A model generated the notes under the pieces. That model was not told the origin of the DNA. It was given only the letters and a program-made list of their open reading frames with translations, and made no database searches. This document shows, in pieces, positions 4,506-27,397 of a stretch of DNA of 55,857 nucleotides. The position numbers and the translations under genes are program-made. Source of the stretch: a virus; IMG/VR virus record IMGVR_UViG_3300049491_001100, positions 1 to 55,857 of that record; one strand, 5' to 3'. The first letter of the stretch is position 1. Every line of letters begins with the position of its first letter.

Positions 4506-5132
4506 ATGCGAATCCTAACGCTAGATCTCTCAACTCACGCCGGCTACGCCATCATGGACGGGGAGCCCGGTACGAAGCCGCAGCTAGTCTTCCACGGCAC
4601 CATCGACATCGACAAGAGCTTGCACGAGTTTGGGAAGTACCCAGACTGCTACCGCAAGGCCGCACGACACATGGCGGCCCTCATCCATTTTAACGTCACC
4701 AACATCGACAAATTTGAGGTGATCGTGATCGAGGAGATCAACCTCGGTCGCAATCGCTATACACAGAAGCTGCTGGAGAACATCCACACGGCAATGCTCG
4801 ATCAGATCGAGAGCTTCTGGCCGCACGCCAAGGTGGTCTACCTCGACTCAAGCGAGTGGCGCCACAATCTCGGTCTGAAGATGACGAAGGAGCAGAAGAA
4901 GCTCAACGCCAAGCTGTCCAAGGCGAAGAAGCTAGCCGCTCAGACCAACATCAAGCTCGACAAGAAGAAGCTCGGCATCAAGGGCAAGGTCAACGCCAAG
5001 CACCTGGCAGTGGCCCATGCCAACACAATTTTTGGCTTGCAGTTGAAGATGAAGCAGAACGATGCCGCAGATGCGATCTGCATCGGTCTCGCCTTCTTCA
5101 ACGGCGCAACGCCATGCGATGGAGTTCAGTGA
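4506..5132 (+). CDS. RuvC-like Holliday-junction resolvase or RNase H-fold nuclease
   Basis: 208 aa from ATG 4506. An upstream TTG would run into the terminator stem, so the ATG is preferred. Features of the RuvC/RNase H fold: first strand MRILTLDLSTHAGYAI with the catalytic Asp, a second acidic pair in VIVIEEINLGRN, and a C-terminal NDAADAICIGLAF with the final Asp. A basic insertion rich in Lys lies at about 120-165. In phages such proteins resolve branched recombination intermediates before packaging. The TGA stop overlaps the ATG of the RNR gene. It is one of two candidate resolvases here, the other being endonuclease VII-like. Confidence 0.75.
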   Translation: MRILTLDLSTHAGYAIMDGEPGTKPQLVFHGTIDIDKSLHEFGKYPDCYRKAARHMAALIHFNVTNIDKFEVIVIEEINLGRNRYTQKLLENIHTAMLDQIESFWPHAKVVYLDSSEWRHNLGLKMTKEQKKLNAKLSKAKKLAAQTNIKLDKKKLGIKGKVNAKHLAVAHANTIFGLQLKMKQNDAADAICIGLAFFNGATPCDGVQ

Positions 5133-7009
5133 TGGGTAAGGAATGGAGCACCCTGGCCAAGGTGGTGTTCAAGAGGACGTATGCACGCAAGCTCTTCCAA
5201 GGCACTTCGCTGGAGCGCCTGGAGAGCTACGCCGAGACCGTGGATCGCGCCATCATGGGCAACGTCCGCAATCACAATGTCAGTGATGCCGAGATTGCGC
5301 GTCTCAAGTACTTCATGAACGAGCGCAAGGCAGGCCCCGCCGGTCGTGGCCTCTGGTTCAGTGGCACCGAGGCCCACTACAAGATCGGGGGCGTCGCTCT
5401 CAACAACTGCTGGTTCGTTACCAGCGCCGACTGGCTCTCGTTCGCCATCGCCTGCGATCTCCTCATGCTCGGTGGCGGTGTCGGCATCAGCGTCGAACAC
5501 AAGTACACGTCGAAGCTACCCAAGATCAAGAAGGGCGTCGTCATCGCTCACAAGGGAACCAAGGATGCGGACTTCATTGTCCCCGACAGCCGCGAGGGCT
5601 GGTGCGAGCTGCTACGCCGTGTCCTGGAGGCGTTCTTCGTCACCGGCAAGGGGTTCACGTACTCGACGGTGTGTGTTCGTGGCTATGGTGAAGCCATCGC
5701 CGGCTTCGGTGGGACTGCCAGCGGCCCCATCCCCCTCATCGAGCTGATCACCAACCTCTGCGGCATCATCATCGCCCGCGAGGGCAAGGCCGTGCGTCCG
5801 ATCGACGCCGCCGACGTCCTCTGTGCCATCGGCGACATGGTTGTCGCTGGCAACGTCCGCCGTTCGGCTATCATCATCATCGGCGATGCCTACGACAAGG
5901 AATACCTGAAGGCAAAGCGCTGGGACCTGGGCACGCTGCCGAAGTACCGCAGCTCTGCCAACTGGTCCATCAACGTCGAGGACATCGAAGACGTCCACCC
6001 GACCTTCTGGAAAACGTACGAGCACGGCGAGCCCTTCGGCATCGTCAACATGACCAACATCCGCAAGTACGGTCGCATGGGCGAGCTGCGAAAGGACACG
6101 GCAGAAGGCGTCAATCCCTGCGGCGAGGCCACGCTGGAGCCCTACGAGCCATGCAACCTACAAGACATCGACCTCCCCAACCTCGACGGTGAGGCAGAGT
6201 TCTTCGAGGCCTGCCGCCTCATGCAGCGCTGGGGCAAGCGAGTCACGTTGGAGCGCTACCACATCCCGCAGGTGGCTGAGGTCATCGAGCGCAACCGCCG
6301 CATCGGGACCAGCATCACCGGCTGCTTGCAGTCGCCCCTGTTCAACCCCCACACGCTCGACCGCGCCTATGCCGAGATCCGCAAGGCCGACACCGAGTAC
6401 TCGAAGGAGTTGGGCATCAATGAGTCCATCCGCAACACGACACTGAAGCCATCGGGTACGAAGTCAAAGATGGACGATGTCGATGGTGAGGGCATCCACG
6501 CCGGCTACAGCCGCTACGCCATCCAGCGCGTTCGCTTCGCCTCAAACGACAAGCTGCTCCCAATTCTCCGGGAAGCTGGCCACCACATGGAGCCGGTCAT
6601 CAACCTGGACGGAACCCTCAACCACGGCACCCAGGTCGTCGATTTCTACAAGAAGGCCCCCGAGAACCTGCCCTGCGCCGACGAGGGCTTCGACACCTGG
6701 AAGCAGCTCGATGCCCTCGTTGTAGCTCAGCGTCACTGGAGCGACCAAGCCGTCTCCGTGACCGTTTACTACAAGCGTGAGGAGATCCCGCAGATCAAGG
6801 CTTGGCTGGGCCAGAACCTGAAGTCGCTGAAGTCTATCTCCTTCCTCTGTCACTCGGAGCACGGCTTCAAGCAGGCCCCGAAAGAAGCTATCTCTCGGGA
6901 AGAGTTCGAGAAGTTGAGCGCGAAGATCAAGCCCATCGACGTCGATGGCATCGGTGAGGGCGATCTCGACAGCCTCGAATGCGCTGGCGGGGTCTGTCCT
7001 GTCAAGTAG
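5132..7009 (+). CDS. nrdJ: Class II (adenosylcobalamin-dependent) ribonucleotide reductase
   Basis: 625 aa, start ATG 5132 coupled to the previous stop with GGAG upstream. It converts ribonucleotides to deoxyribonucleotides. The opening VVFKRTYAR...ETVDRAI and the central NPCGEATLEPYEPCNL (radical-site Cys and catalytic Glu) match the monomeric class II enzymes typified by Lactobacillus RTPR. NNCWFV supplies the first redox cysteine (Cys93). The C-terminal CAGGVC is the CxxxxC redox shuttle. There is no glycyl-radical motif and no separate small subunit gene, consistent with a B12-dependent enzyme. It is shorter than the roughly 739-aa RTPR. Host cobalamin would be needed. Confidence 0.92.
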   Translation: MGKEWSTLAKVVFKRTYARKLFQGTSLERLESYAETVDRAIMGNVRNHNVSDAEIARLKYFMNERKAGPAGRGLWFSGTEAHYKIGGVALNNCWFVTSADWLSFAIACDLLMLGGGVGISVEHKYTSKLPKIKKGVVIAHKGTKDADFIVPDSREGWCELLRRVLEAFFVTGKGFTYSTVCVRGYGEAIAGFGGTASGPIPLIELITNLCGIIIAREGKAVRPIDAADVLCAIGDMVVAGNVRRSAIIIIGDAYDKEYLKAKRWDLGTLPKYRSSANWSINVEDIEDVHPTFWKTYEHGEPFGIVNMTNIRKYGRMGELRKDTAEGVNPCGEATLEPYEPCNLQDIDLPNLDGEAEFFEACRLMQRWGKRVTLERYHIPQVAEVIERNRRIGTSITGCLQSPLFNPHTLDRAYAEIRKADTEYSKELGINESIRNTTLKPSGTKSKMDDVDGEGIHAGYSRYAIQRVRFASNDKLLPILREAGHHMEPVINLDGTLNHGTQVVDFYKKAPENLPCADEGFDTWKQLDALVVAQRHWSDQAVSVTVYYKREEIPQIKAWLGQNLKSLKSISFLCHSEHGFKQAPKEAISREEFEKLSAKIKPIDVDGIGEGDLDSLECAGGVCPVK

Positions 7010-8633: not shown

Positions 8634-9758
8634 ATGGCGAAGGGCGACCGAGAGGCAAAGAAGGCTAATGAAAGGTCCGTGCTGGACTACCTCCAGCAGC
8701 GCGGCCTAGAGGACGAGACCAGAGTTCGCGTACGGCGCAACTCCGCTGCCACGGCTGCCGTGGGCAGGGAGGCATTGTTCTCGGACCAGCTCAAAGACGC
8801 CCTCTCGGAAGTCTTCACCGAGCGCGTGATCCCAAAGTTCAAGCCGGGCAAGTCCAAGGGGAAGACACAGAGGATCCTGAACGTGATCTTCTCCGACACC
8901 CACTACGGCAGCGACCTCGATCCGCGAGAGCTGGGGCACAAGTACGGGCCCGTCGAGGAGGCTCGCCGCACGGCAGCGGTCTGTCGTGAGGTGGCGCAGT
9001 ACAAGCTGCACTACCGAAGCGAGACCGAGCTGTACGTTCACATCCTGGGCGACATCATCCAGGGTCAGCTCCACGACCAGCGAGACGGCAAGCCGCTCGC
9101 CGAGCAGGCGTCAGCAGCAATCCGCATCTTCGTCAACGCCATCACCTACCTCGCTCAAGCATTCCCCAAGGGCGTGACCGTGCTCTGCACCCCAGGCAAT
9201 CACGGCCGCAACTCCGCTCGTCATCGTGAGCGCGCAGTCAATCAGAAGTGGGACAGCATCGAGACGATCATCTACACCGCCATCAAAGAGGCGGTTCGCA
9301 ATATCTCGAACGTCAAGGTACTCGTCGACTACCCGGCCGAGTACGAGTTCGAGTCCTTCGACAACGTGGGCTATGCAACCCACGGTGACACTCACTTCAA
9401 CCCGGGCTACCCCGGTAAGAATGTGGATGCCGGTGGCTTGAAGCGCCAGATGGACTCCAAAAACAATGCTCGCGTTCTCGCTGGCAAGAAGCCATACAGC
9501 CTCTTCATCGTGGGCCACGTCCACGTCGGGACTATGCTCCACCTCCCCGGCGGGGCAATCGCTCTCACGAACGGCTGTCTTCTGCCGCCAGACGCATATG
9601 CCAAGACCATCGGCATCGACACCACGTCCTGCGGTCAGTGGATGTGGGAGTCGGTCAAGGGCCACATCGTCGGAGACGCACGGTTCATCACCGTCGACTT
9701 CGACACCGACAAAGATGACTCCCTCGATGGGATCATCCAGCCCGTGCTGAGGTTGTAG
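8634..9758 (+). CDS. Calcineurin-like metallophosphoesterase
   Basis: 374 aa, ATG 8634 with a GGAGGGAG site. The dimetal motifs appear in order: FSDTHYG (D-x-H), LGDIIQG (GD), TPGNHGR (GNH), ATHGDTH, and GHVHVGT (GHxH). This is the Mre11/SbcD, lambda phosphatase and calcineurin fold. The N-terminal 80 residues, before the first motif, are basic and helical. It could be the nuclease partner of the SbcC-like ATPase, but it sits 5 kb away and lacks an obvious capping domain, so a stand-alone nuclease or phosphatase is equally possible. Confidence 0.85.
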   Translation: MAKGDREAKKANERSVLDYLQQRGLEDETRVRVRRNSAATAAVGREALFSDQLKDALSEVFTERVIPKFKPGKSKGKTQRILNVIFSDTHYGSDLDPRELGHKYGPVEEARRTAAVCREVAQYKLHYRSETELYVHILGDIIQGQLHDQRDGKPLAEQASAAIRIFVNAITYLAQAFPKGVTVLCTPGNHGRNSARHRERAVNQKWDSIETIIYTAIKEAVRNISNVKVLVDYPAEYEFESFDNVGYATHGDTHFNPGYPGKNVDAGGLKRQMDSKNNARVLAGKKPYSLFIVGHVHVGTMLHLPGGAIALTNGCLLPPDAYAKTIGIDTTSCGQWMWESVKGHIVGDARFITVDFDTDKDDSLDGIIQPVLRL

Positions 9759-9762
9759 GCCA

Positions 9763-9781
9763 GCGCGCCCACGGGGCGCGC
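9763..9781 (+). other. GC hairpin between genes
   Basis: GCGCGCCC (9763-9770) pairs with GGGCGCGC (9774-9781) around a 3-nt loop just after the phosphoesterase stop. No T tract follows, so it is more likely an mRNA-stabilising or attenuating hairpin than an intrinsic terminator. Confidence 0.5.
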
Positions 9782-9794
9782 AGAAGACACAGGA

Positions 9795-10010
9795 ATGACA
9801 ACGGCTCAAGCTAAAGCTCTCATCGAGAGCGATCCCGACTTCATCTACAGCAAGCGCTTCAATTACAGCCTCAAGGAACTGCAACTGCGGTACCCTGACG
9901 GCTGTCCAGATCGCATCATCGCCGCCGTCCTCATGATCACCGAGGACGACGTCGAGGCCGTGTATCAGAAGATCGTGCTCAAGCTCCGCAACTGCATGGG
10001 CCTCGGTTGA
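9795..10010 (+). CDS. Small helix-turn-helix protein, sigma region 4-like (tentative)
   Basis: 71 aa. The segment SLKELQLRYPDGCPDRIIAAVLMITEDDV then YQKIVLKLR has the spacing of a sigma-70 region 4 helix-turn-helix (Leu-rich helix, RYPDG turn, second helix, recognition helix, KLR end). This is resemblance by eye and not proof. A small DNA-binding protein is the safest reading. Its TGA stop shares its last base with the following promoter motif. Confidence 0.5.
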   Translation: MTTAQAKALIESDPDFIYSKRFNYSLKELQLRYPDGCPDRIIAAVLMITEDDVEAVYQKIVLKLRNCMGLG

Positions 10011-10019
10011 TTCGCTATA
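10010..10019 (+). promoter_or_regulatory. Phage promoter motif copy (ATTCGCTATA)
   Basis: Perfect copy overlapping the upstream TGA, 19 nt before ATG 10039. A strong GAGGAGG site lies in the spacer. Confidence 0.8.
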
Positions 10020-10038
10020 CGAATTGAGGAGGTTGGCG

Positions 10039-10260
10039 ATGAAGAATGAGACTCGGAAGTCCACCCTGGACGAGCTGTCACACGCCGTCGGGGAGTACAA
10101 CCACGCCAGAGGTAAGTGGCAAGAAGCTACGCGCATGGTCGAAGCCAAGCGCAAGGAAATGGAATCGTTCATGCGAGACGAGGCCAAGACCAAGGCAGAG
10201 ATGGATCGCTTTGCCGCCACCCTCTACCGTATCGCCAACGACCTGGAGAAAATGCCGTGA
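10039..10260 (+). CDS. Small coiled-coil protein, 73 aa
   Basis: ATG 10039 follows GAGGAGG by about 7 nt. The sequence is almost entirely charged helix (YNHARGKWQEATRMVEAKRK and onward), typical of a short coiled coil. No function recognised. The stop TGA lies inside a GTGA overlap with the next gene. Confidence 0.65.
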   Translation: MKNETRKSTLDELSHAVGEYNHARGKWQEATRMVEAKRKEMESFMRDEAKTKAEMDRFAATLYRIANDLEKMP

Positions 10261-10610
10261 ACCAAGCTAAAACCCTGGAGAAGCTGCTCAAAGATCTCGA
10301 AGAGGCCTCACCAGCCGCTTTCTCGCCGGTTGCTGACGCAGCTCCCGGCCCCTTCCAGTTCAGCGATGCCCTGGACAAGAACAAGATCCGCGTCCAGAGC
10401 CCCAGCTACGTCAAGAAGAACTGTAACCACTGCTACGGCAAGGGCTTCGAGACCTACCTGATCGGGGGCGGTTACTTTCCCAAGGCTCCTGGGCACGTCA
10501 GCGAGCGCATTCCACGCCAAGCCCGCAGCCTCCGCGCCTGCCGCTGTGTGACTCGCGGCTACATCAGGGCTGCCATGGCCTTCATGAGAGCGAAGAAGGC
10601 GGACGAGTAG
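10257..10610 (+). CDS. Small Cys-cluster protein, 117 aa
   Basis: GTG start in GTGA overlap with the previous gene. Cysteines occur as CNHCYGKG (a CxxCxGxG knuckle like those of DnaJ-type zinc fingers) and CRC about 40 residues later, so a single zinc site is plausible. The rest is an Ala/Pro-rich N-terminus and a basic helical tail. Function unknown. Confidence 0.6.
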   Translation: MNQAKTLEKLLKDLEEASPAAFSPVADAAPGPFQFSDALDKNKIRVQSPSYVKKNCNHCYGKGFETYLIGGGYFPKAPGHVSERIPRQARSLRACRCVTRGYIRAAMAFMRAKKADE

Positions 10611-18832: not shown

Positions 18833-19858
18833 ATGTACCACTTCAAGGGAGCAGATCCAGCAGTACTACTCCAGATCTTGAAGGAGTCGCGCCTCAAGTA
18901 CGATCAGACCTCGGTCTCGTACGTCTTCACATGCCCCAGGTGTCAGGGCAAGAAGAAGCTCTATATCCGCAAGGCAGACGGCCGCTTCGTTTGCTGGAAG
19001 TGTAAGGAGACGGAGTCGTACCAGGGTCGGCCAGAGTTTGCCCTCGCCGATCTCCTCAGTCAGCCCGTCAAGCAGGTTCAGTCGCGTCTGTATGGCGGCG
19101 AGCACATTCCTGTCAGTCTCTACCTCGACGTCAAAGTCAAGGACTTCTTCGGCGATGATGACGACGTAGACGACGACGCCGTCGAGATCGCTACCACGTT
19201 CTGGCCCCTGGAGTACCTGCCCATCGATCACGTCCACGCCGCCCGTGGCGCCGAGTACCTGCACGGACGCGGGATCCCGCTCTGGATGGCGAAGAAGTAC
19301 GACATCCGCTACTGCCCACAGAAGCGCCGAGTTGTGTTTCCTGTTAACTCTGGCCCGGCGCTGTATGGTTGGCAGGAGCGTATCGTCATCCCGAACAAGT
19401 TCATCGACGAAGACGGGAACGAGCGAGAAATCCCCAAGATCCTGTCATCGACCGGGATCCCCAGGGACAGGACGGTCATGTTCGCGGACAGGCTGCAAGG
19501 CGTCGACCACGCCATCCTGTGCGAGGGCCCCGTCGATGCCTTGAAGGCCCACTTCTGCAAGGGGAACGTGGCCGCCATGGGCAAGGCCGTGTCCAGGGAG
19601 CAGGTGCGCTTGCTCGTCAACGCCGGCATCAAGAAGCTCTACCTCGCCCTCGACCCAGACGCCGCCGATGAAATCCAGCGCCTGGTACGGAACAACTACG
19701 ACGACTTCGAGATGTACGAGATGATCGCGCCAGCTAAGACCGGTCGCGACAAGTACGACTTGGGGGCGATGGAGTTTGCGGAAGTGGACGACCTCTTTCG
19801 TTCAGCCGCCCGGATCGGACCCGGGCGGCTATTCATCCACCTCAGCTACAAGTACTAG
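18833..19858 (+). CDS. DnaG-like primase (zinc ribbon plus TOPRIM)
   Basis: 341 aa from ATG 18833; a GTG six bases earlier is also possible. N-terminal zinc ribbon: CPRC about 30 residues in, then CWKC. The TOPRIM core contains ILCEGPVDALKAH (acidic Glu) and LYLALDPDAADEI (DxD-like). This is the layout of bacterial and T7-type primases, which lay RNA primers for lagging-strand synthesis. No helicase domain is attached. Its stop overlaps, tail to tail, the end of the - strand gene. A DnaB-like replicative helicase was not seen in the window. Confidence 0.88.
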   Translation: MYHFKGADPAVLLQILKESRLKYDQTSVSYVFTCPRCQGKKKLYIRKADGRFVCWKCKETESYQGRPEFALADLLSQPVKQVQSRLYGGEHIPVSLYLDVKVKDFFGDDDDVDDDAVEIATTFWPLEYLPIDHVHAARGAEYLHGRGIPLWMAKKYDIRYCPQKRRVVFPVNSGPALYGWQERIVIPNKFIDEDGNEREIPKILSSTGIPRDRTVMFADRLQGVDHAILCEGPVDALKAHFCKGNVAAMGKAVSREQVRLLVNAGIKKLYLALDPDAADEIQRLVRNNYDDFEMYEMIAPAKTGRDKYDLGAMEFAEVDDLFRSAARIGPGRLFIHLSYKY

Positions 19859-21387
19859 AGCCCGATCGAGCGCTTCCAGTTGTTGAAGGTGCCGACGCGG
19901 TGCTTGGCCGTCGAGACCGACAGCTTCTGTCCCTTGTGGGCACCGGACTTGACCTCGAAGTTCTCCATCACGAACTTGAGCAGCTTGGCCGGCGACGCCT
20001 CGCCATCCTCGAAGTACCAGGAGAAGAGGCTGAGTTCGCTGGAGCCGAGGACAGCCGCCCGGAACACGGCCTTCTCCTCATCGGAGCCTGGAGTGGTCTG
20101 AGCCAACTCCTGTCCCGTGGCCGTGACCACACCACCACCGACGAACCCGAGCATAACCGCAGCCCGCTGGTAGTAGCGGACCTGACGCTGGTCGACGCCC
20201 ATGGCCTCGATGAGTTCGGCCACGGTCGTGAGTCCATTCTTCATACCCGTGACCACGGCCCGAACCAGGTCGAGCTGGGCCGCCTGCGGGATGATGGCGG
20301 CGTCGAAGAGAACGGTCTTGACTTCCTTGGGGGTGCAGATGTCACACCCCTCCTGGTGTGTGCGCAGGCGTCGGTTGGCCTCCTTGCGGGCGCTGAAGTC
20401 GACGTTGGCGTTGGTGGTGGTGCTGGTGAGGATGTCCACCATCCGATCGTGCGGCATCGACTCCAGGAGTTGTCCCAGCTTTTCCGATGCCGAGGCCTTG
20501 CGAGCTGCCTGCGACGACAGGTCCAACTGGCAGTTCCTGGCGATGTAGTCGTAGTCGATCTCCTCGATCTCGTCCTCATCTTCGTTGAGCCGATCCATCT
20601 TGGCGACCAGGATGGACTCGGGATTGGGCGAAGATTCCAGGTCGGCACCGGGGTCGCTGAAGAGAGCCACTGCCACGGCCTCTTCGTTGGGGAGGACTGA
20701 CCGCTCCTGCTTCAGGAGCAGGGGCTGGAGGTCGCAGTGGAACCGCTGCTGGAGATAGCGGTAGAGCTTGCGCTCGTTGTCGAAGTGGGTCGGATTCGCG
20801 GTCTCGTAGCGGGTGCAGAAGTTCACGATCCAGCAGCGGGCGTACTGGAAGAGGTCGTTGATGTCGAGGCCGTTCCGCTTGCAGAGGTGATCGTTGAGGC
20901 GGAAGAAGCCCCAGGCCACGCGCTCCATCGTGGGCTTGTACTGGGCCCAGACGTGTGCGGGCGGGTTCACGGAGCGGCGGAACTCGGTGTGACGGATGGC
21001 GACGTCGAAGGCGTTGTCCCGGTAGTGGAGCTTGCGCGGGTTGCCCTTGTCGTTGGCCTCGGGCTCGGCGCCCCGGCTGATGGGTTGGAGGCGTTCGTAG
21101 CCCGCTGCGTCCGTGACCTTCCAGAAGCCCTCCAGGGCCTCGGAGAGCTTCTTGCCGGTCAGGACACCGGCCAGCACCTGGACATCGCCTGCGGGGTCCT
21201 GGGCTGCATCCAGAGCCACCTGGACCTGCATCAGGGTTCCGTCTTCCTTGGTCACGACCAAGTCGCACCCAGCAGCCTTTGAGGGCTGAACATCGATCCC
21301 CACCGCCCGCAGCCACGACCGCAGCGTGTTCACGGCGGTGCTGTTGCGTCCCTGAGCCGTGAATGGAGCCTTCTTCGCGTTGGACAT
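19855..21387 (-). CDS. Possible sigma-like / winged-helix regulator
   Basis: 510 aa, starting at ATG 21387 with AGGAGGA just upstream. A longer frame to 21513 is rejected because it would cover the promoter motif. The segment RLNDHLCKRNGLDINDLFQYARCWIVNFCTRYE then LYRYLQQRF resembles sigma-70 region 2 (DL-Q-A pattern and following helix). The part AELIEAMGVDQRQVRYYQRAAVMLGFV is a winged-helix-type HTH. The end (KHRVGTFNNWKRSI) looks DNA-related. It is the only - strand gene of the first 42 kb and has its own motif copy. A role in transcription or replication control is inferred. An origin-binding or restriction-like protein is the alternative. Confidence 0.5.
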   Translation of the reverse strand: MSNAKKAPFTAQGRNSTAVNTLRSWLRAVGIDVQPSKAAGCDLVVTKEDGTLMQVQVALDAAQDPAGDVQVLAGVLTGKKLSEALEGFWKVTDAAGYERLQPISRGAEPEANDKGNPRKLHYRDNAFDVAIRHTEFRRSVNPPAHVWAQYKPTMERVAWGFFRLNDHLCKRNGLDINDLFQYARCWIVNFCTRYETANPTHFDNERKLYRYLQQRFHCDLQPLLLKQERSVLPNEEAVAVALFSDPGADLESSPNPESILVAKMDRLNEDEDEIEEIDYDYIARNCQLDLSSQAARKASASEKLGQLLESMPHDRMVDILTSTTTNANVDFSARKEANRRLRTHQEGCDICTPKEVKTVLFDAAIIPQAAQLDLVRAVVTGMKNGLTTVAELIEAMGVDQRQVRYYQRAAVMLGFVGGGVVTATGQELAQTTPGSDEEKAVFRAAVLGSSELSLFSWYFEDGEASPAKLLKFVMENFEVKSGAHKGQKLSVSTAKHRVGTFNNWKRSIGL

Positions 21388-21414
21388 GAATCCTCCTCGA
21401 TCCGGTGTGGATCC

Positions 21415-21424
21415 TATAGCGAAT
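21415..21424 (-). promoter_or_regulatory. Phage promoter motif copy, minus strand
   Basis: Perfect ATTCGCTATA on the - strand, 27 nt before the only - strand gene of this arm. That the motif flips with the gene is the strongest single argument that it is a promoter. Confidence 0.82.
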
Positions 21425-21546
21425 CTACAACAGCTTTCTGGAGCATATTTTGCCCCAGCAAGAGCCAGCGTACGCGAGATCGCTCGACCTGTCAACAGGA
21501 TATGGCCATTCACGTACTTTCAGACACTTAGCTACAACAGTCGGAG

Positions 21547-21556
21547 ATTCGCTATA
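21547..21556 (+). promoter_or_regulatory. Phage promoter motif copy (ATTCGCTATA)
   Basis: Perfect copy, 20 nt before ATG 21577 of the ClpP-like gene. It starts the operon that runs to 24674. Confidence 0.8.
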
Positions 21557-21576: not shown

Positions 21577-22188
21577 ATGACCATGCCGACCCCGGAACAG
21601 AATGTCATCAACAAGGTCGAGTCCTGCGTCTCCTTCGAGAAGCGGACGCTGTACGTTATGGGAGACGTCGACGACGATCTCGCCTACCAGGTCCAGGTGG
21701 CACTTGAGGCCCTGGACTCAACGGATGGCGACATCCGCATTGTCCTCAACAGCGAGGGCGGGGAAGAGCAGCCCGGGTACGCCATCTACGACGCCATCAC
21801 CATGTGCCGCAACAAGGTGATCATCGAAGCCTATGGCAGTGTCATGTCCATTGCCGCCGCCATCTTCCAGGCCGCTGATGTGAGGCGCATCTCCCCCAAC
21901 GCCGTCTTCATGATCCACAACGGCAGCGTCGATACCGAGGGCAACGTCCAGCAGGATGCCGTCCTGGACCTGGCGGAACAGATCAAGAAGGGCGCCCAGC
22001 GCTACTACGACATCCTCATGCGCGGCTCCGGCCAACCCCAAGACCTCATCGAGCAATGGTGTCGCGATGAGACCTTCTTCAGCGCTGATGAAACTGTGTC
22101 GGCGTGCTTTGCCGACGAAGTCATCAAGCCGGTCAAGGTCAAGGCACCGGTCAAGCTCAAGAAAAGAAAGAGAAAGGCTAACTCATGA
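21577..22188 (+). CDS. ClpP-like serine protease
   Basis: 203 aa. Conserved ClpP-fold motifs: IRIVLNSEGGEEQPGYAIYDAI (the glycine-rich oxyanion strand), AYGSVMSIAAAIFQAAD with the nucleophile Ser91, and NAVFMIHNGS with His114. The third residue is probably the Asp in the CRDETFFSADE segment. Phage ClpP-like proteins often act as capsid-maturation proteases, but no capsid or portal gene is nearby. Here it heads an operon with a membrane protein, an aminotransferase and a CYTH protein. No ClpX/ClpA unfoldase gene was seen. It may therefore act on a small set of targets or with a host ATPase. Confidence 0.85.
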   Translation: MTMPTPEQNVINKVESCVSFEKRTLYVMGDVDDDLAYQVQVALEALDSTDGDIRIVLNSEGGEEQPGYAIYDAITMCRNKVIIEAYGSVMSIAAAIFQAADVRRISPNAVFMIHNGSVDTEGNVQQDAVLDLAEQIKKGAQRYYDILMRGSGQPQDLIEQWCRDETFFSADETVSACFADEVIKPVKVKAPVKLKKRKRKANS

Positions 22189-22823
22189 ACCCGTTCAAGA
22201 ACCTCGGCCCTAAGGCTCAGCAGTTGCTGGGCGACAACAAGCACTGGCTCTCACTCATCCTCATCGCTGTCGCCCTCTTCGGTGGCGGTATGGCAGTCGG
22301 CCGCTACACGCTCCCGGCCAAGGTCGTGACCACGGAGAAGGTCCACGAGGTCGTCAAGGATCGCATCGTAGAAGTGGTCAAGACCGAGGTCCGAGTCGTC
22401 GAGGTCAAGATCCACGACTCCAAGCAGGCAGAGAAGGTCCACCGCGTGACCGTGGAAGGGATCGATCCACCCGGCTGCAAGAGCAAGACCGTCACCGAGG
22501 ACATCAACATCGACACCGTCGTCCACGACAACACCAACACCAACTCGACCGAGATCAAGTACGTGGATCGCGTCGTCGAGAAGTGGCAGGATCGCATCGT
22601 GGAAAAGACCAAGACCGTGCTCAACCAGCCCAACTGGCGCGTGGCAGCAGGGGCTGGCGTGGCCATCCCCTACTTCCTAGGTCAGGGCAGCCCAGGCGTC
22701 CCCGGGCTCCAGGGCGCTGTCATCAACGTCGAAGCCGACCGCCGGATCATCGGCCCCTTCTGGCTCGGCATCCACGGCAACACCCAGGGCGTGGTCGGCC
22801 TCAACCTGTCGGGTGTGTTCTGA
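22185..22823 (+). CDS. Membrane-anchored coiled-coil protein, 212 aa
   Basis: ATG 22185 overlaps the ClpP-like stop. One membrane helix (WLSLILIAVALFGGGMAVG) lies at about 21-39. A Val/Glu/Lys-rich extended segment with repeated DRIVEVVK and DRIVEKTK units follows. The C-terminal 60 residues are Gly/hydrophobic (NWRVAAGAGVAIPYFLGQG). The layout resembles phage proteins anchored in the inner membrane and reaching into the periplasm. A spanin-like or envelope role is possible but not shown. Confidence 0.7.
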   Translation: MNPFKNLGPKAQQLLGDNKHWLSLILIAVALFGGGMAVGRYTLPAKVVTTEKVHEVVKDRIVEVVKTEVRVVEVKIHDSKQAEKVHRVTVEGIDPPGCKSKTVTEDINIDTVVHDNTNTNSTEIKYVDRVVEKWQDRIVEKTKTVLNQPNWRVAAGAGVAIPYFLGQGSPGVPGLQGAVINVEADRRIIGPFWLGIHGNTQGVVGLNLSGVF

Positions 22824-23095
22824 TGGTCAAGCTCAAGAACTGGGCCGTCGTCGATCGTGGTGGCGGTCTGCCATGCCTCAAGGGTGAGGTCTACGGACAC
22901 CCCAAGCACGACGACGGCATAGAGATCGTGACCAGCCCCATCGTCAGCACCAGCGGTCGCGTCGTCACCACCAGCAATCGCGAGTACGAGCTGGACGGGC
23001 CGCCGGAACCGGGGTACATTGCGTACATGTCCAGCATCGGCCACGTCCTCGACGAAGCCCAACCAGTCAAGATCATCAACCCCAACGTGAACTGA
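22823..23095 (+). CDS. Unknown small protein, 90 aa
   Basis: Start and stop both overlap neighbours by ATGA (22823 and 23095), so it is translationally locked between the membrane protein and the aminotransferase. The predicted protein is beta-rich, with a Gly-rich start (VVDRGGGLPCLKGEVYG) and Ser/Thr-rich middle, and could be a small SH3-like barrel. No family recognised. Confidence 0.65.
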   Translation: MVKLKNWAVVDRGGGLPCLKGEVYGHPKHDDGIEIVTSPIVSTSGRVVTTSNREYELDGPPEPGYIAYMSSIGHVLDEAQPVKIINPNVN

Positions 23096-24078
23096 TGAAC
23101 GACCTCCAGATGGCGCGTGGTGCAGTGGAAGGCGGCTACAACCTAGCCGTTGGCGAGCCCGTTGTCTTGCAACAGGCCCTGTCGCTGCCACACGCCCACG
23201 TCCTGGGGCCGTTCGAGTACCCAACCATCGACGGCGACCCCAGACTCAGGGCTGAGCTGGAGGCGTTGCACCCCGGCCACCACATCGTCATCACCAACGG
23301 CGCCAAGCAGGCTCTGGCAGCCGCCTTCTACGCCTACCGCGAAGTCGAGGGCGCAAGCATCGTCCAACACAACCCACCCTACTGGCCCAGCTACCCAACC
23401 CTCGCCAACATGGCCAGGATGACATTTGGCGATAGCGACTGGAAGGAGAAGGTCCGGTGCATCACGGCCCCCAACAACCCCGATGGTTCCGAGCTGTCGC
23501 CGTCGTACATCGGCAATCCATTCCAGATCTGGGACTCGGTGTATGCGCACTGGGTTTGGGGTTGGAACGGGAAGGAGCCACCGCACGAGGTCAGAGTGTG
23601 CTCGGCGTCCAAGATCTTGGGCTTGTCCGGGGTCAGGGTGGGCTGGCTCGCCACCAAGAACAAGCGCCTGGCTGACGCTGCTGCACGTTTTGTTGAGTTC
23701 ACGACGTCCGGGGTCGGGCTCCTGGCCCAGCGCTACGTCGCCGACATCATGGAGCTGCTGGCCAGGGTCGACTCCACCGGCGCCTATCGCCAGGCTCGCA
23801 CGTCCCTGCTCACCAACAGTGGCCGCTTCAACTACTACATCTACGACATGTGCCAAGTCGTCGAAGGCGTGCCAGCCCACGGCACCGGCATGTTCGCCTT
23901 CTTCCAGATCTCCCCACCCCTGCGCGACCGCTTCCGGGATGCGCTGGTCAAGGCCAAGGTGGCACTGGTTACCGGCGCCGCCTGCGGCGTCAGGGAGCCG
24001 GACTGGTACCGCATGAATCTCGCTCACGACAACCAGTACACCGAGGAAGCGCTGAAGGCGCTGAGGGAGGCCCTGTGA
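23095..24078 (+). CDS. PLP-dependent fold-type I aminotransferase
   Basis: 327 aa. It has the signature residues of class I/II aminotransferases: a LAVGEP start, VITNGAKQAL (phosphate-binding turn), NNPDG at 127-131, Asp147 and Tyr150 in WDSVYAHW (ring stacking and pyridine nitrogen), SASKILGLSGVRVGW with the PLP lysine Lys173, and a C-terminal RMNLAH with the carboxylate-binding Arg. All catalytic residues appear intact. It is shorter than usual (about 380-400 aa), mainly at the N-terminus. Such enzymes are rare in phages. The substrate could be an amino acid, a modified-base precursor or a sugar nucleotide. It is coupled by overlap to the CYTH gene. Confidence 0.88.
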   Translation: MNDLQMARGAVEGGYNLAVGEPVVLQQALSLPHAHVLGPFEYPTIDGDPRLRAELEALHPGHHIVITNGAKQALAAAFYAYREVEGASIVQHNPPYWPSYPTLANMARMTFGDSDWKEKVRCITAPNNPDGSELSPSYIGNPFQIWDSVYAHWVWGWNGKEPPHEVRVCSASKILGLSGVRVGWLATKNKRLADAAARFVEFTTSGVGLLAQRYVADIMELLARVDSTGAYRQARTSLLTNSGRFNYYIYDMCQVVEGVPAHGTGMFAFFQISPPLRDRFRDALVKAKVALVTGAACGVREPDWYRMNLAHDNQYTEEALKALREAL

Positions 24079-24674
24079 TCAGTCAACACGATGAGATCGA
24101 AGCCAAGATGTCAGCAGACGGCGTCGCCGTTGCCGACTTCAAGGCGTACATGAATAAGGAGTTCGACGTCGTCCGGTACGAGTTTGTACAGGGCCCCGAC
24201 CGCTACTACGAGAGCGGCCCCAATGTGGTCCGGCACCGAATCAAGCACAACGTCAAGGGCCACGAGCTGACGGTGAAGCGGCGCAAAAGCACCGGCTCTA
24301 CCCGCGACCGGCAGGAGATCGACCTCCACTTCAGCAAGAAGACCGAAGCCCGCGACGTCGAGGTCTTTCTGTCCGCGACCGGCTTCGTCAAGGTCTTCAG
24401 CCTGTGGAAGAAGGCTCACATCTTCTGGGTGCAGCTCACGCCGCGCCTGGAAGCCACTTTCGTCATCTACGACGTCGAGATCGAGGGCGATCCGACGTCG
24501 AGCAAGCGTTTTATCGAGATCGAGGCCGAGAAGGGAAGCGCCGTCACGCCCGAGACCGCCAAGCGCCACGTCAACGCCTGTGTCGCTGACCTGCGACGCA
24601 GCTTCAACCTGGCCGAGGCCCTGAACGACAGCCTCTACGAGATCTACTCGGGGAAGCGCTACCAGACCGTCTGA
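24075..24674 (+). CDS. CYTH / triphosphate tunnel phosphohydrolase-like protein
   Basis: 199 aa, GTG start in GTGA overlap with GGGAGG 4 nt upstream. The pattern DRYYESG, VVRHRIK, HELTVKRRK, RQEIDLHF, a long mid-helix, FVIYDVEIEGD and RFIEIEAEKGS follows the strand order of CYTH proteins, which bind triphosphates in an eight-strand tunnel. The usual N-terminal ExExK motif is degenerate (RYEFVQG). Family members include thiamine triphosphatases, class IV adenylate cyclases, inorganic triphosphatases and RNA 5'-triphosphatases, so substrate cannot be assigned. Confidence 0.72.
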   Translation: MISQHDEIEAKMSADGVAVADFKAYMNKEFDVVRYEFVQGPDRYYESGPNVVRHRIKHNVKGHELTVKRRKSTGSTRDRQEIDLHFSKKTEARDVEVFLSATGFVKVFSLWKKAHIFWVQLTPRLEATFVIYDVEIEGDPTSSKRFIEIEAEKGSAVTPETAKRHVNACVADLRRSFNLAEALNDSLYEIYSGKRYQTV

Positions 24675-24683
24675 TTCGCTATT
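24674..24683 (+). promoter_or_regulatory. Promoter motif variant (ATTCGCTATT)
   Basis: Nine of ten bases match. It overlaps the TGA of the CYTH gene and lies 39 nt before ATG 24723. Confidence 0.72.
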
Positions 24684-24722: not shown

Positions 24723-24899
24723 ATGATCTTGAAGAGCGCACTGAAGTCCACCATCGATGAGGTTTTGGAGGAGCACGAGGTCGAGGATGACGGACTCGCA
24801 TCCGACCTCCTGGATCGGCTCGTACAGGACTTCGGCGACGAGGTCCACGACGATGACGACGATCCCGGGTTCCTCGGGGGTGACAGCGTCGAGGAATAG
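24723..24899 (+). CDS. Small acidic protein, 58 aa
   Basis: ATG 24723 with GGAGA 7 nt upstream is preferred over an upstream TTG. The protein is very acidic, ending in a run of Asp (EVHDDDDDPGFLGG). Small acidic phage proteins often act as inhibitors or DNA mimics of host factors, but no specific similarity is seen. Its TAG overlaps the GTG of the next gene. Confidence 0.65.
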   Translation: MILKSALKSTIDEVLEEHEVEDDGLASDLLDRLVQDFGDEVHDDDDDPGFLGGDSVEE

Positions 24900-25483
24900 T
24901 GGGCAGCTTCGATCTAAAGACGGAAGCTCTGTGCTGGCTTCGCTTCGGCAAGAAACTGGAGCTGGTTTGCACTGAAGGTGGTTGTTGGGCCGCTGACGTT
25001 CTTGGCATATCCGACAAGTTCTCTGTCGAGGTAGAGGTCAAGGTCAGCAAAGCTGACCTTCGGCGCGAGTTCTCGACGAAGAGAAGCAAGCACTACCTGT
25101 ACAACAACGTGGCAGCAGAAGCAGCGCCGCCACGACAGGTACCCAACTACTTTTACTTCTACGTCCCTCCCGAGCTAGAACAGGAGGCGCTGAAGCTGAT
25201 CGAGGAGCACTCGCCCAAGGCAGGGCTTGCCGTCTTCGATCCCGAAGCGAAGGTAGACGGCAAGAGGACTCGGGTCGTGAGGAAGCCGACGCGGCTTCAC
25301 GACAAGGAACCGAGTCAGCAGTTCAAGCGTACCGTGCTTCTCCGAATGGGTTCAGAGCTGTGCGGGCGCTACGTGGTCTGGAGGGACCACATCGACAAGG
25401 TTCACGAGGCCCTGATCCATCTGGATCAGACAATCGTGGACACGGTGAAGAAGGCGTTCGAGACACCAGACGCCGAGGAGTGA
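24899..25483 (+). CDS. PD-(D/E)XK nuclease-like protein (MmcB-type)
   Basis: 194 aa, GTG start overlapping the previous TAG. The segment AADVLGIS (Asp), then SVEVEVKVSKADLRREFSTK (E-x-K core) and NYFYFYVPPEL follows the order of MmcB-like PD-(D/E)XK nucleases, where the acidic strand and ExK motif bind metal and a Y-F-VP strand follows. About 100 extra residues at the C-terminus are helical. Likely DNA repair or end-processing; alternatively an inactive fold. Confidence 0.6.
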   Translation: MGSFDLKTEALCWLRFGKKLELVCTEGGCWAADVLGISDKFSVEVEVKVSKADLRREFSTKRSKHYLYNNVAAEAAPPRQVPNYFYFYVPPELEQEALKLIEEHSPKAGLAVFDPEAKVDGKRTRVVRKPTRLHDKEPSQQFKRTVLLRMGSELCGRYVVWRDHIDKVHEALIHLDQTIVDTVKKAFETPDAEE

Positions 25484-25486
25484 CAC

Positions 25487-25741
25487 ATGATCGAAAAGAC
25501 AGTCAGACGATCGCAGGTTGGACCTGGCAGGGTTCGCTACCGCGTCGTCATCACGGGGGAGCCGTGTACCCCAAAGACTCATGAATCCAGGCAGCACCAG
25601 TACTTGTTCCTGCACTGGATCGCTGACAATCAGCACATGCTGGAGTGTGGGTATAACGTCCCCGACAAGGTCAGCGTCACCCACAACGGCACATCGTGGC
25701 AGGCTGAAGCAGAGGCAGAGGTTGACGAGGAGACAGCATAG
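25487..25741 (+). CDS. Unknown small protein, 84 aa
   Basis: ATG 25487, three bases after the previous TGA. A beta-strand-rich start (VRYRVVITGEPC), a His/Trp-rich middle and an acidic tail. No family recognised. Confidence 0.6.
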   Translation: MIEKTVRRSQVGPGRVRYRVVITGEPCTPKTHESRQHQYLFLHWIADNQHMLECGYNVPDKVSVTHNGTSWQAEAEAEVDEETA

Positions 25742-25743
25742 CC

Positions 25744-26043
25744 ATGAGCAATCGCCGAGTGACCCAACACCGGCAGCAACGAGACACCAGCAACCAGGAG
25801 AACGCGGAACTCAAAAAGGAAAACACAAAACTCAAGCGTCAGGTGGCTCGACTTAGGAAGGAGCTGGAGAAGCAGCCAGCAGAAGACGACACCGACGAAG
25901 GGGAGCCAAACCAGGAGGAGGGCAAGATCTCGCTGGCCTGCCCCAAGTGCTCTAGCACGAACCTGGGCGAGATCTCGACGCCGAACGGTAAGACGGTTTT
26001 GTCATGCCGCAACTGCAAGAAGTGGAGGTCAAAAGCGGCCTGA
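25744..26043 (+). CDS. Coiled-coil plus zinc-ribbon protein, 99 aa
   Basis: The first half is a charged coiled coil (ENAELKKENTKLKRQVARLR), the second half a zinc ribbon with CPKC and CRNC knuckles 23 residues apart and a basic end (KKWRSKAA). This combination suggests a dimeric nucleic-acid-binding protein. Its TGA overlaps the next, slightly degenerate promoter motif. Confidence 0.7.
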   Translation: MSNRRVTQHRQQRDTSNQENAELKKENTKLKRQVARLRKELEKQPAEDDTDEGEPNQEEGKISLACPKCSSTNLGEISTPNGKTVLSCRNCKKWRSKAA

Positions 26044-26052
26044 TTTGCTATA
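26043..26052 (+). promoter_or_regulatory. Promoter motif variant (ATTTGCTATA)
   Basis: One mismatch. It overlaps the upstream TGA and is 7 nt from a GTG start at 26060, the same geometry as the perfect copies. Confidence 0.62.
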
Positions 26053-26059
26053 AAGAATA

Positions 26060-26203
26060 GTGAGTCCTCGTGTGTGCGCAGTTATCGCGGTGTGGAGACC
26101 TGCGCCTGAGGGCTCTTCATGGGACCAGATCAACCATGCCTGGCGCGTGCTCTTCGCCCTTATTGACGAAGCATTGCGACTAGACAGACTGGAGCGATCA
26201 TGA
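26060..26203 (+). CDS. Small unannotated protein, 47 aa
   Basis: GTG 26060 opens a 48-codon frame, ending in ATGA overlap with the ATG at 26200. The translation (VSPRVCAVIAVWRPAPEGSS at the start, then DQINHAWRVLFALIDEALRL) has a helical second half. Motif spacing upstream and stop-start overlap downstream support it as a real gene despite its size. Function unknown. Confidence 0.55.
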   Translation: MSPRVCAVIAVWRPAPEGSSWDQINHAWRVLFALIDEALRLDRLERS

Positions 26204-26409
26204 AGTGTCCGTCGTCTGATGACGGTTCCTGCCCCTCAACCGACCCCCTGGAGGTACACCACACCGACGAGTACTCCACCTACTACTGCCAGACCTGCGG
26301 CCACGAAGAGAAAATCGTTTGGGAGACGCCCAAGGACTCCCCCAAGAACAAGGAGCGGACACGTCTGGAGCCCAGCCCACCCAAGAAGAAGTTGAAGAGG
26401 GGAAAGTGA
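26200..26409 (+). CDS. Small zinc-ribbon protein, 69 aa
   Basis: ATG 26200 with GGAG 5 nt upstream. CPSSDDGSC near the start and CQTCGHEE give a four-Cys ribbon. The C-terminal third is basic (KKKLKRGK), as in nucleic-acid-binding proteins. GTGA overlap with the next gene. Confidence 0.65.
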   Translation: MKCPSSDDGSCPSTDPLEVHHTDEYSTYYCQTCGHEEKIVWETPKDSPKNKERTRLEPSPPKKKLKRGK

Positions 26410-26726
26410 AGGATTTTCCAGGTACCTACGCCGTCGTCTTCCCGGAGCTGAAGCTGAAGCTGCCGGATGTCGACGACTTCATCGGGAAACCGCTGACGCC
26501 CAAGCTCGTAGCTCATGCCCGAGACGTGATCGCAGGCCTGCGTAAGGCGGCTGAGAACTACAACGAACACGAGCTGCTGCTGGTGGACGGGGTCTGGATC
26601 ACAAACTGGCTCAGGCGCAGCCTCGACTGCATGGAGCGGGCTCAGCGCATCGAGAAGTTGGTTGATGACAATCTGGCCCTGCTGCCAAGCCCACGCTGTC
26701 GGCACTGCGGCCACAGCCTCACCTGA
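26406..26726 (+). CDS. Unknown protein with C-terminal CxxC, 106 aa
   Basis: GTG start in GTGA overlap with an AGGGGA site upstream. Helical protein ending in a CRHCGHSLT zinc-knuckle half site, so metal binding may need a dimer or the His. Its TGA overlaps the next promoter motif. Confidence 0.6.
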   Translation: MKDFPGTYAVVFPELKLKLPDVDDFIGKPLTPKLVAHARDVIAGLRKAAENYNEHELLLVDGVWITNWLRRSLDCMERAQRIEKLVDDNLALLPSPRCRHCGHSLT

Positions 26727-26953: not shown

Positions 26954-27397
26954 ATGGCACCACCGTTCCCCACCGTTCCCGTCACCGTCGACATCCTCAT
27001 CGAGAACCTGGCCGGGGACCAGCTCGTGCTGATCCAGCGCCGAGATGAGCCGCCCGGCTACGCCATCCCCGGTGGCTTCGTCGAGCCCGGTGAGAGCGCG
27101 GCTCAGGCCGCCATCCGCGAGGCCAAGGAAGAGACCGGCCTCGACGTCGAGCTGATCGAGCAGTTCCACGCCTACTCAAAGTCGGGTCGTGATCCCCGGG
27201 GCCCAGTTTGCTCGATTGTGTTCATCGCCAAGGCCATCGGAACCCCACGGGGCGGCGACGACGCCAAGACGGCGGCCTGGTTCGACTTCAAGAGCGGGAT
27301 GCCGATGCCGATCGAGATGGCGTTTGATCACGCCAACATCCTCGCCGACTACAAGACCTACAAGGTGTGCGCGATCAAGCCGCACCCCCACAGATAG
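26954..27397 (+). CDS. Nudix hydrolase
   Basis: 147 aa. A complete Nudix box runs from Gly41 through Glu47, Arg55-Glu56 and Glu59-Glu60 to Gly62 (GGFVEPGES...REAKEETGL), which binds magnesium and cleaves nucleoside diphosphate linkages. The N-terminal VDILIEN...LVLIQRRDEPPGYAIPGG is typical of ADP-ribose or nucleotide-sugar pyrophosphatases. Lying just before RNA ligase, it could remove ADP-ribose or NAD-type caps, or act on nicotinamide nucleotides. Substrate is not decided by sequence. Confidence 0.9.
   Translation: MAPPFPTVPVTVDILIENLAGDQLVLIQRRDEPPGYAIPGGFVEPGESAAQAAIREAKEETGLDVELIEQFHAYSKSGRDPRGPVCSIVFIAKAIGTPRGGDDAKTAAWFDFKSGMPMPIEMAFDHANILADYKTYKVCAIKPHPHR

Follow-up and report, generated by a model that had tools for sequence, protein, structure and literature searches.

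The region analysed lies in the virus record IMGVR_UViG_3300049491_001100, whose 55,857 bases were considered as a whole (the window), and consists of five genes on the + strand. The first (21577..22188) codes for a ClpP-like serine protease of 203 aa (PF00574, E=5e-27; head-maturation-protease families were also matched), and the second (22185..22823) for a membrane-anchored protein of 212 aa with a single N-terminal transmembrane segment, as judged by eye, for which Pfam and PHROG profile searches gave no family assignment. They are followed by a 90-aa protein (22823..23095), which has weak PHROG matches (best E=0.0097) and gave no tblastn match against the first five relatives fetched. The last two genes code for a fold-type I PLP enzyme of 327 aa, annotated as a class I/II aminotransferase and carrying its PLP lysine at K173 (AT, 23095..24078), and for a CYTH/triphosphate-tunnel enzyme of 199 aa (CYTH, 24075..24674), whose GTG start overlaps the AT stop codon. 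All four junctions overlap, by 4, 1, 1 and 4 nt in order, and the operon with start-stop overlaps described in a previous sequence-only reading of this DNA is therefore present as described, including the overlap of 4 nt coupling AT to CYTH.

The five genes are bracketed by consecutive copies of a promoter-like motif, ATTCGCTAT, on the + strand. One copy (21547..21555) is located about 22 nt upstream of the ClpP-like gene, where it may act as promoter, and the other (24674..24682) overlaps the CYTH stop codon, closing this unit and opening the next. The window contains 25 matches to the motif with at most one mismatch, compared with 3.8 expected by chance, and none of 100 shuffles reached this number. 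Exact copies account for 17 of these matches on the + strand and for one on the – strand, the latter preceding the reverse gene at 19855-21513. The copies are mostly intergenic and oriented along the direction of transcription. In a variant form, GTTCGCTATA, the motif is found again in the related contig L030. A search for a sigma-70-like promoter upstream of the operon found none; the single promoter proposed earlier is a putative one, for which ATTCGCTAT is a candidate.

The AT sequence matches PF00155 (E=2e-20, 73.5 bits against a cut-off of 19.7) as well as PF04864 (Alliinase_C, E=6e-13), and both families are matched by all 24 AT members collected in this study. In the alignment of these 24 sequences, residues K173, S170, D147, Y150, R181 and R306 are invariant and N128 is kept in more than 90%, which bears out the claim that the catalytic residues, Lys173 included, are intact. 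The predicted structure is confident (pLDDT 93.6) and was matched by Foldseek to many aminotransferases. The nearest solved structure is that of TAA1 from Arabidopsis (PDB ID: 3bwn; profile E=8e-36, in agreement with the fold search), and the next-closest solved enzymes are alliinase and GntC. While all PLP residues of the TAA1/alliinase/GntC-VioD group are kept in the AT, the latter is shorter and has 17-18% identity to them in the fold alignment. No NCBIfam cut-off is reached, and an assignment as GntC cyclodehydratase was rejected (53 bits against an equivalog cut-off of 415). Amongst predicted viral structures, nothing close to the AT was found (best 18%). An AspAT-type residue set is that of PLP catalysis on a substrate bearing an alpha-carboxylate, and amongst the relatives of the AT are both lyases (alliinase) and a cyclodehydratase (GntC). 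The AT is thus predicted from its residues to be a PLP enzyme for an alpha-carboxylate substrate, a description which a transaminase, a lyase and a cyclase would fit alike. Since R306, the equivalent of Arg386, is the arginine binding the alpha-carboxylate, its invariance points to a free alpha-amino acid as substrate rather than a nucleotide, and speaks against the earlier suggestion that the AT aminates a nucleotide-linked compound.

For the CYTH protein of the window, the match to PF01928 lies just under the gathering cut-off (E=1e-4, 22.6 bits against 23.2), and 8 of the 21 CYTH members match this family at E<=0.01 (best 1e-10). The tunnel is predicted confidently (pLDDT 95.1), and Foldseek matches the model to archaeal CYTH proteins, amongst them solved enzymes of the triphosphate tunnel metalloenzyme (TTM) type such as PH1819 (PDB ID: 2een, E=2e-8) and the triphosphate-bound SaTTM (PDB ID: 7nsf); the tunnel had been recognised correctly from the sequence. 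The phage family shares with SaTTM and the archaeal CYTH triphosphatases the tunnel fold and the ExExK, DxY, RxR, LTxK and ExE motifs. The first of these is conserved at E7 (19/21), E9 (21/21) and K11 (20/21), while the Asp of DxY, R53 and R55 (RxR), K68, K112, and E148 and E150 (ExE) are invariant in all 21 sequences. According to the rules published with the SaTTM study, which separate TTM phosphohydrolases from cyclases and thiamine triphosphatases by their motifs, class IV adenylyl cyclases are marked by HF before ExExK, by Ala in place of the second Glu of ExE and by replacement of the first Arg of RxR, and thiamine triphosphatases by a W or Y two residues ahead of that Arg (PMC8233210). 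A cyclase was rejected, as HF is found in none of the 21 members and both E150 and R53 are kept, and so was a thiamine triphosphatase, the diagnostic position being occupied by V (14), K (3), A (2), T (1) or I (1). Lacking HF and an aromatic residue ahead of RxR, but retaining the second ExE Glu, the CYTH protein is predicted to be a TTM-type phosphohydrolase.

The family also has features of its own. A C-terminal S-[LI]-[YFW]-E motif is conserved amongst the phage sequences, unlike in SaTTM and the archaeal triphosphatases, and the arginine of the KxR motif, which stabilises the triphosphate in SaTTM (R112, two residues after K110) and is carried by the solved CYTH relatives in the same alignment, is absent from all 21 members, where it is replaced by C (7), S (6), A (5), F (2) or D (1). 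This uniform change suggests that the substrate differs, and would then lie outside the known TTM set, or that it is bound in another way; the protein could also bind a phosphate chain without hydrolysing it.

Relatives of CYTH turned up in five viral contigs in an initial search. Two of them have the ClpP-like and membrane genes followed by AT and then CYTH, and a third has the order ClpP-CYTH-x-AT. With alignment-based profile scans the collection grew to 24 AT and 21 CYTH sequences, the most distant of them sharing about 25-30% identity; such pattern-based searches are not exhaustive. AT is directly followed by CYTH in 12 contigs (the window, L007-L012, L014, L015, L017, L020 and L038), and CYTH begins no later than the last base of the AT stop codon in 11 of the 12. 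As a rough comparison, since the contigs are related, about 29% of same-strand neighbours overlap in a stretch of the genome of Myxococcus phage Mx1. The two genes lie a short distance apart with CYTH before AT in L024 and L032, and far apart on one contig in L018 and L034. Nine contigs have AT without CYTH and six have CYTH without AT (L036/L037 counted once), some of the contigs being fragments. The pair, proposed from a single genome, therefore co-occurs in many divergent phages, and the initial observation proves to be correct and stronger than was stated, as not only the pair but also its overlap is conserved.

Amongst 50,697 phage records, tblastn with the AT and CYTH sequences of several members found no relative; the AT of L010 gave weak partial matches to Listeria phages at 28% and nothing else. 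In a genome collection, one phage-like contig was matched, in an Elusimicrobia MAG, while no match was found in 119 other genomes of the same phylum. Phage CYTH proteins as such are known from jumbo phages, where they have been suggested to clear unmodified NTPs (PMC7824862), and from the T4-like phages Aeh1 and RB49 (PMC1524935). Like the CYTH protein of the window they are phage-encoded domains of putative role, but neither publication mentions an aminotransferase partner, and a search of open-licence papers found no report of an AT-CYTH pair in phages. That CYTH proteins are already found in other phages qualifies the earlier interpretation.

The AT-CYTH site is fixed within the replication region of these large phages, flanked by the ClpP/membrane genes on one side and a PD-(D/E)XK-like gene on the other. 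The RecA-primase-DnaB-ClpP-membrane block is syntenic across relatives, with the ClpP-like gene itself syntenic in most of them, and homologues of the membrane protein (family F9) were found at 12 other loci. Replication-region synteny could by itself keep AT and CYTH adjacent. A cultured relative is available in Mx1 (OR576727.2, 169,621 bp), a virulent myovirus of Myxococcus (PMC6070905), whose capsid protein is 60% identical to that of the L014 contig and whose PolIII alpha is 46% identical to that of the window. Its genes are arranged as PolIII-x-SSB-x-RecA-primase-(reverse gene)-DnaB-ClpP-membrane, the membrane protein having 32% identity to its counterpart in the window. Two unrelated small genes come next, in place of AT and CYTH, and are followed by homologues of the window genes 24899-25483 and 25487-25741, so that the two genomes share the whole PolIII-SSB-RecA-primase-DnaB-ClpP-membrane block plus the genes downstream. 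Neither AT nor CYTH was found in the complete Mx1 genome, and a test of whether the 200-aa gene in the place of CYTH is a hidden CYTH was negative. Mx1 being virulent without them, a basic lytic cycle in this group does not require the module, and the existence of contigs with only one of the two genes further indicates that the unit is optional and separable.

The pairwise distances of AT and CYTH are correlated with each other (Mantel r=0.74) and with those of ClpP, DnaB, RecA and primase (Mantel r 0.65-0.93). This divergence in step with the replication genes indicates that the pair is old in this phage group and that AT was not recently acquired from a host. Of the two outcomes that the sequence-only reading had named as refuting it, a recent host-derived AT and a pair that never co-occurs elsewhere, neither was obtained. 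We built a tree from four backbone proteins, in which the pair is present on both sides of the deepest split, while contigs with AT only, CYTH only or neither are scattered; the tree is a quick, midpoint-rooted one with several weak forks and long branches. An ancestral pair followed by separate losses is the simplest reading, although gain of the pair by exchange between phages is not excluded.

The genome content bears on the proposal, also made in the sequence-only reading, that the pair produces a modified base. The window encodes PolIII alpha, a class II RNR, SbcCD-like nuclease proteins, UvsX/RecA, dUTPase, RNase H, a CCA/polyA-type polymerase, RNA ligase and helicases. The 34 mostly non-structural proteins scanned from a 165-kb relative of L014 include ThyX, dNMP kinase, IMPDH/GMPR, UDG, RtcB, RNA ligase and a class II RNR. 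No known base-modifying enzyme was found in either set of scanned proteins, which for the window agrees with what had been noted before. ThyA occurs in 1 of 16 contigs, and a divergent ThyX in several relatives. A DNA-base hypermodification module could be read from a PLP enzyme adjoining a triphosphatase, from the divergent ThyX and from the role proposed for the jumbo-phage CYTH proteins (PMC7824862). Against it, the scanned proteins of the window and of this relative (G025) include no base-modification enzyme, the AT has an invariant alpha-carboxylate arginine, and the presence of ThyX, dUTPase and UDG points to ordinary T-DNA; we therefore regard it as highly improbable. The earlier interpretation was half right in that the association is real, whereas base modification is unlikely; the predicted amino-acid enzyme and triphosphatase may have linked or parallel activities.

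The reading we favour, with evenly balanced confidence, is that AT and CYTH form an optional, old accessory module with coupled translation, which acts on small molecules of the host, most likely on separate substrates. The overlap of the CYTH start with the AT stop would cause the two proteins to be made together. The AT would hold PLP on K173 and process an alpha-amino acid, either transaminating it or carrying out an elimination like its alliinase and GntC relatives, while the CYTH tunnel would bind a phosphate chain and hydrolyse it through two-metal TTM catalysis, its substrate being one for which the usual KxR arginine can be dispensed with. Together they may adjust host small-molecule pools during infection, presumably to the benefit of the phage. 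The nine AT-only and six CYTH-only contigs indicate that neither enzyme needs the other. This also speaks against a two-step pathway, in which CYTH would dephosphorylate an intermediate made or consumed by AT, or clear its phosphorylated form, so that one signalling or protective compound is built or destroyed: single-gene phages occur in several lineages, and no third pathway enzyme was seen to co-vary with the pair. RNA ligase, which looked associated near CYTH before whole contigs were counted, was dropped as a link (10/20 CYTH-positive against 2/7 CYTH-negative contigs). The two-step reading is nonetheless consistent with the overlap being conserved, at protein identities of about 35%, in 11 of the 12 pairs, and with both genes being retained where they have moved apart (L018, L034) or changed order (L024, L032), and we consider it rather unlikely. 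The association proposed earlier is real, while a joint pathway is possible but unproven, given the AT-only and CYTH-only phages and an Mx1 with neither.

A module that is optional at a fixed site and missing from Mx1 would also suit counter-defence or alarmone clearance, with CYTH hydrolysing or sequestering a defence second messenger or a (p)ppGpp-like signal and AT altering an amino acid tied to starvation signalling. In G003, a small RelA/SpoT-HD-like hydrolase (TIGR00691, E=2e-13) is encoded two genes ahead of the displaced CYTH, but this neighbour is found in one contig only and provides no direct link, and PADLOC matches neither AT nor CYTH; we consider this explanation unlikely. Yet another possibility is that there is no functional link, and that unrelated accessory genes stand side by side through conserved genome order. 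The synteny of the whole RecA-primase-DnaB-ClpP-membrane block and the occurrence of single-gene losses agree with this, but the overlap has been maintained and highly divergent phages still carry the pair, whereas other genes at the site (the 90-aa protein, the Mx1 genes) turn over, and we judge it very unlikely. A dedicated phage pathway combining amino-acid PLP chemistry with an altered-tunnel TTM hydrolysing a non-standard phosphorylated compound is a rather improbable prospect; if true, a signalling or protective molecule so far undescribed would be its product or its target, and a pathway shared by AT and CYTH would represent new viral small-molecule chemistry. Two enzyme families are in any case defined here, conserved in a wide and mostly uncultured phage group related to Mx1, and as Mx1 lacks both, phages with and without a metabolic module can be cleanly compared.

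The motif ATTCGCTAT is found at 17 exact sites on the + strand of the window (for example at 1384, 7010, 10831, 18811, 21547, 24674 and 39092), where it often overlaps a stop codon, with the next gene starting just after it. It probably serves this phage as a promoter or processing signal of its own. The related locus L030 carries a variant of the motif, GTTCGCTATA.

In the cultured Myxococcus phage Mx1, the site occupied in the window by the aminotransferase (AT) and triphosphate-tunnel (CYTH) genes holds two unrelated hypothetical genes (25526-26466 of the Mx1 stretch, L054; 143156-144096 of the Mx1 record), so that this site is possibly an accessory-gene hot spot. In related phages, HNH/zinc-ribbon-like sequence lengthens the CYTH and AT reading frames (L024 4320-5537, L036 6004-7197 and L009 5596-6963), an arrangement suggestive of homing-endonuclease insertion at the two genes.

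The surroundings of CYTH include a Nudix hydrolase gene, located 2.3 kb downstream in the window (26954-27397) and directly downstream in L001 (6600-7043, identified by eye). In one phage, L014, CYTH is followed at a distance of about 2 kb by a gene for IMP dehydrogenase/GMP reductase (9447-10436), and L043 contains a small RelA/SpoT-type HD hydrolase gene (325-876), possibly coding for an alarmone hydrolase, with a displaced CYTH gene two genes downstream.

Both Mx1 and the window phage have a ribonucleotide reductase gene in a similar position, upstream of PolIII alpha, although the enzyme is of class II (B12-type) in the window (4856-7009) and annotated as class Ia in Mx1 (L054 6203-8877). 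A GroEL-like chaperonin is shared by Mx1 (L054 737-2509, annotated) and the L014 contig (L051 2338-4107, recognized by eye). The contigs of L010, L011, L013, L014, L018 and L032 encode highly divergent ThyX-like proteins scoring 32-49 bits against PF02511, with a match that leaves out the N-terminal part; their function may differ from that of ThyX.

A contig of the window-phage type with approximately full phage length (L038, JAGWUP010000007.1, 164,949 bp) is included in an Elusimicrobia MAG bin, possibly as a hint to the host or through misbinning.
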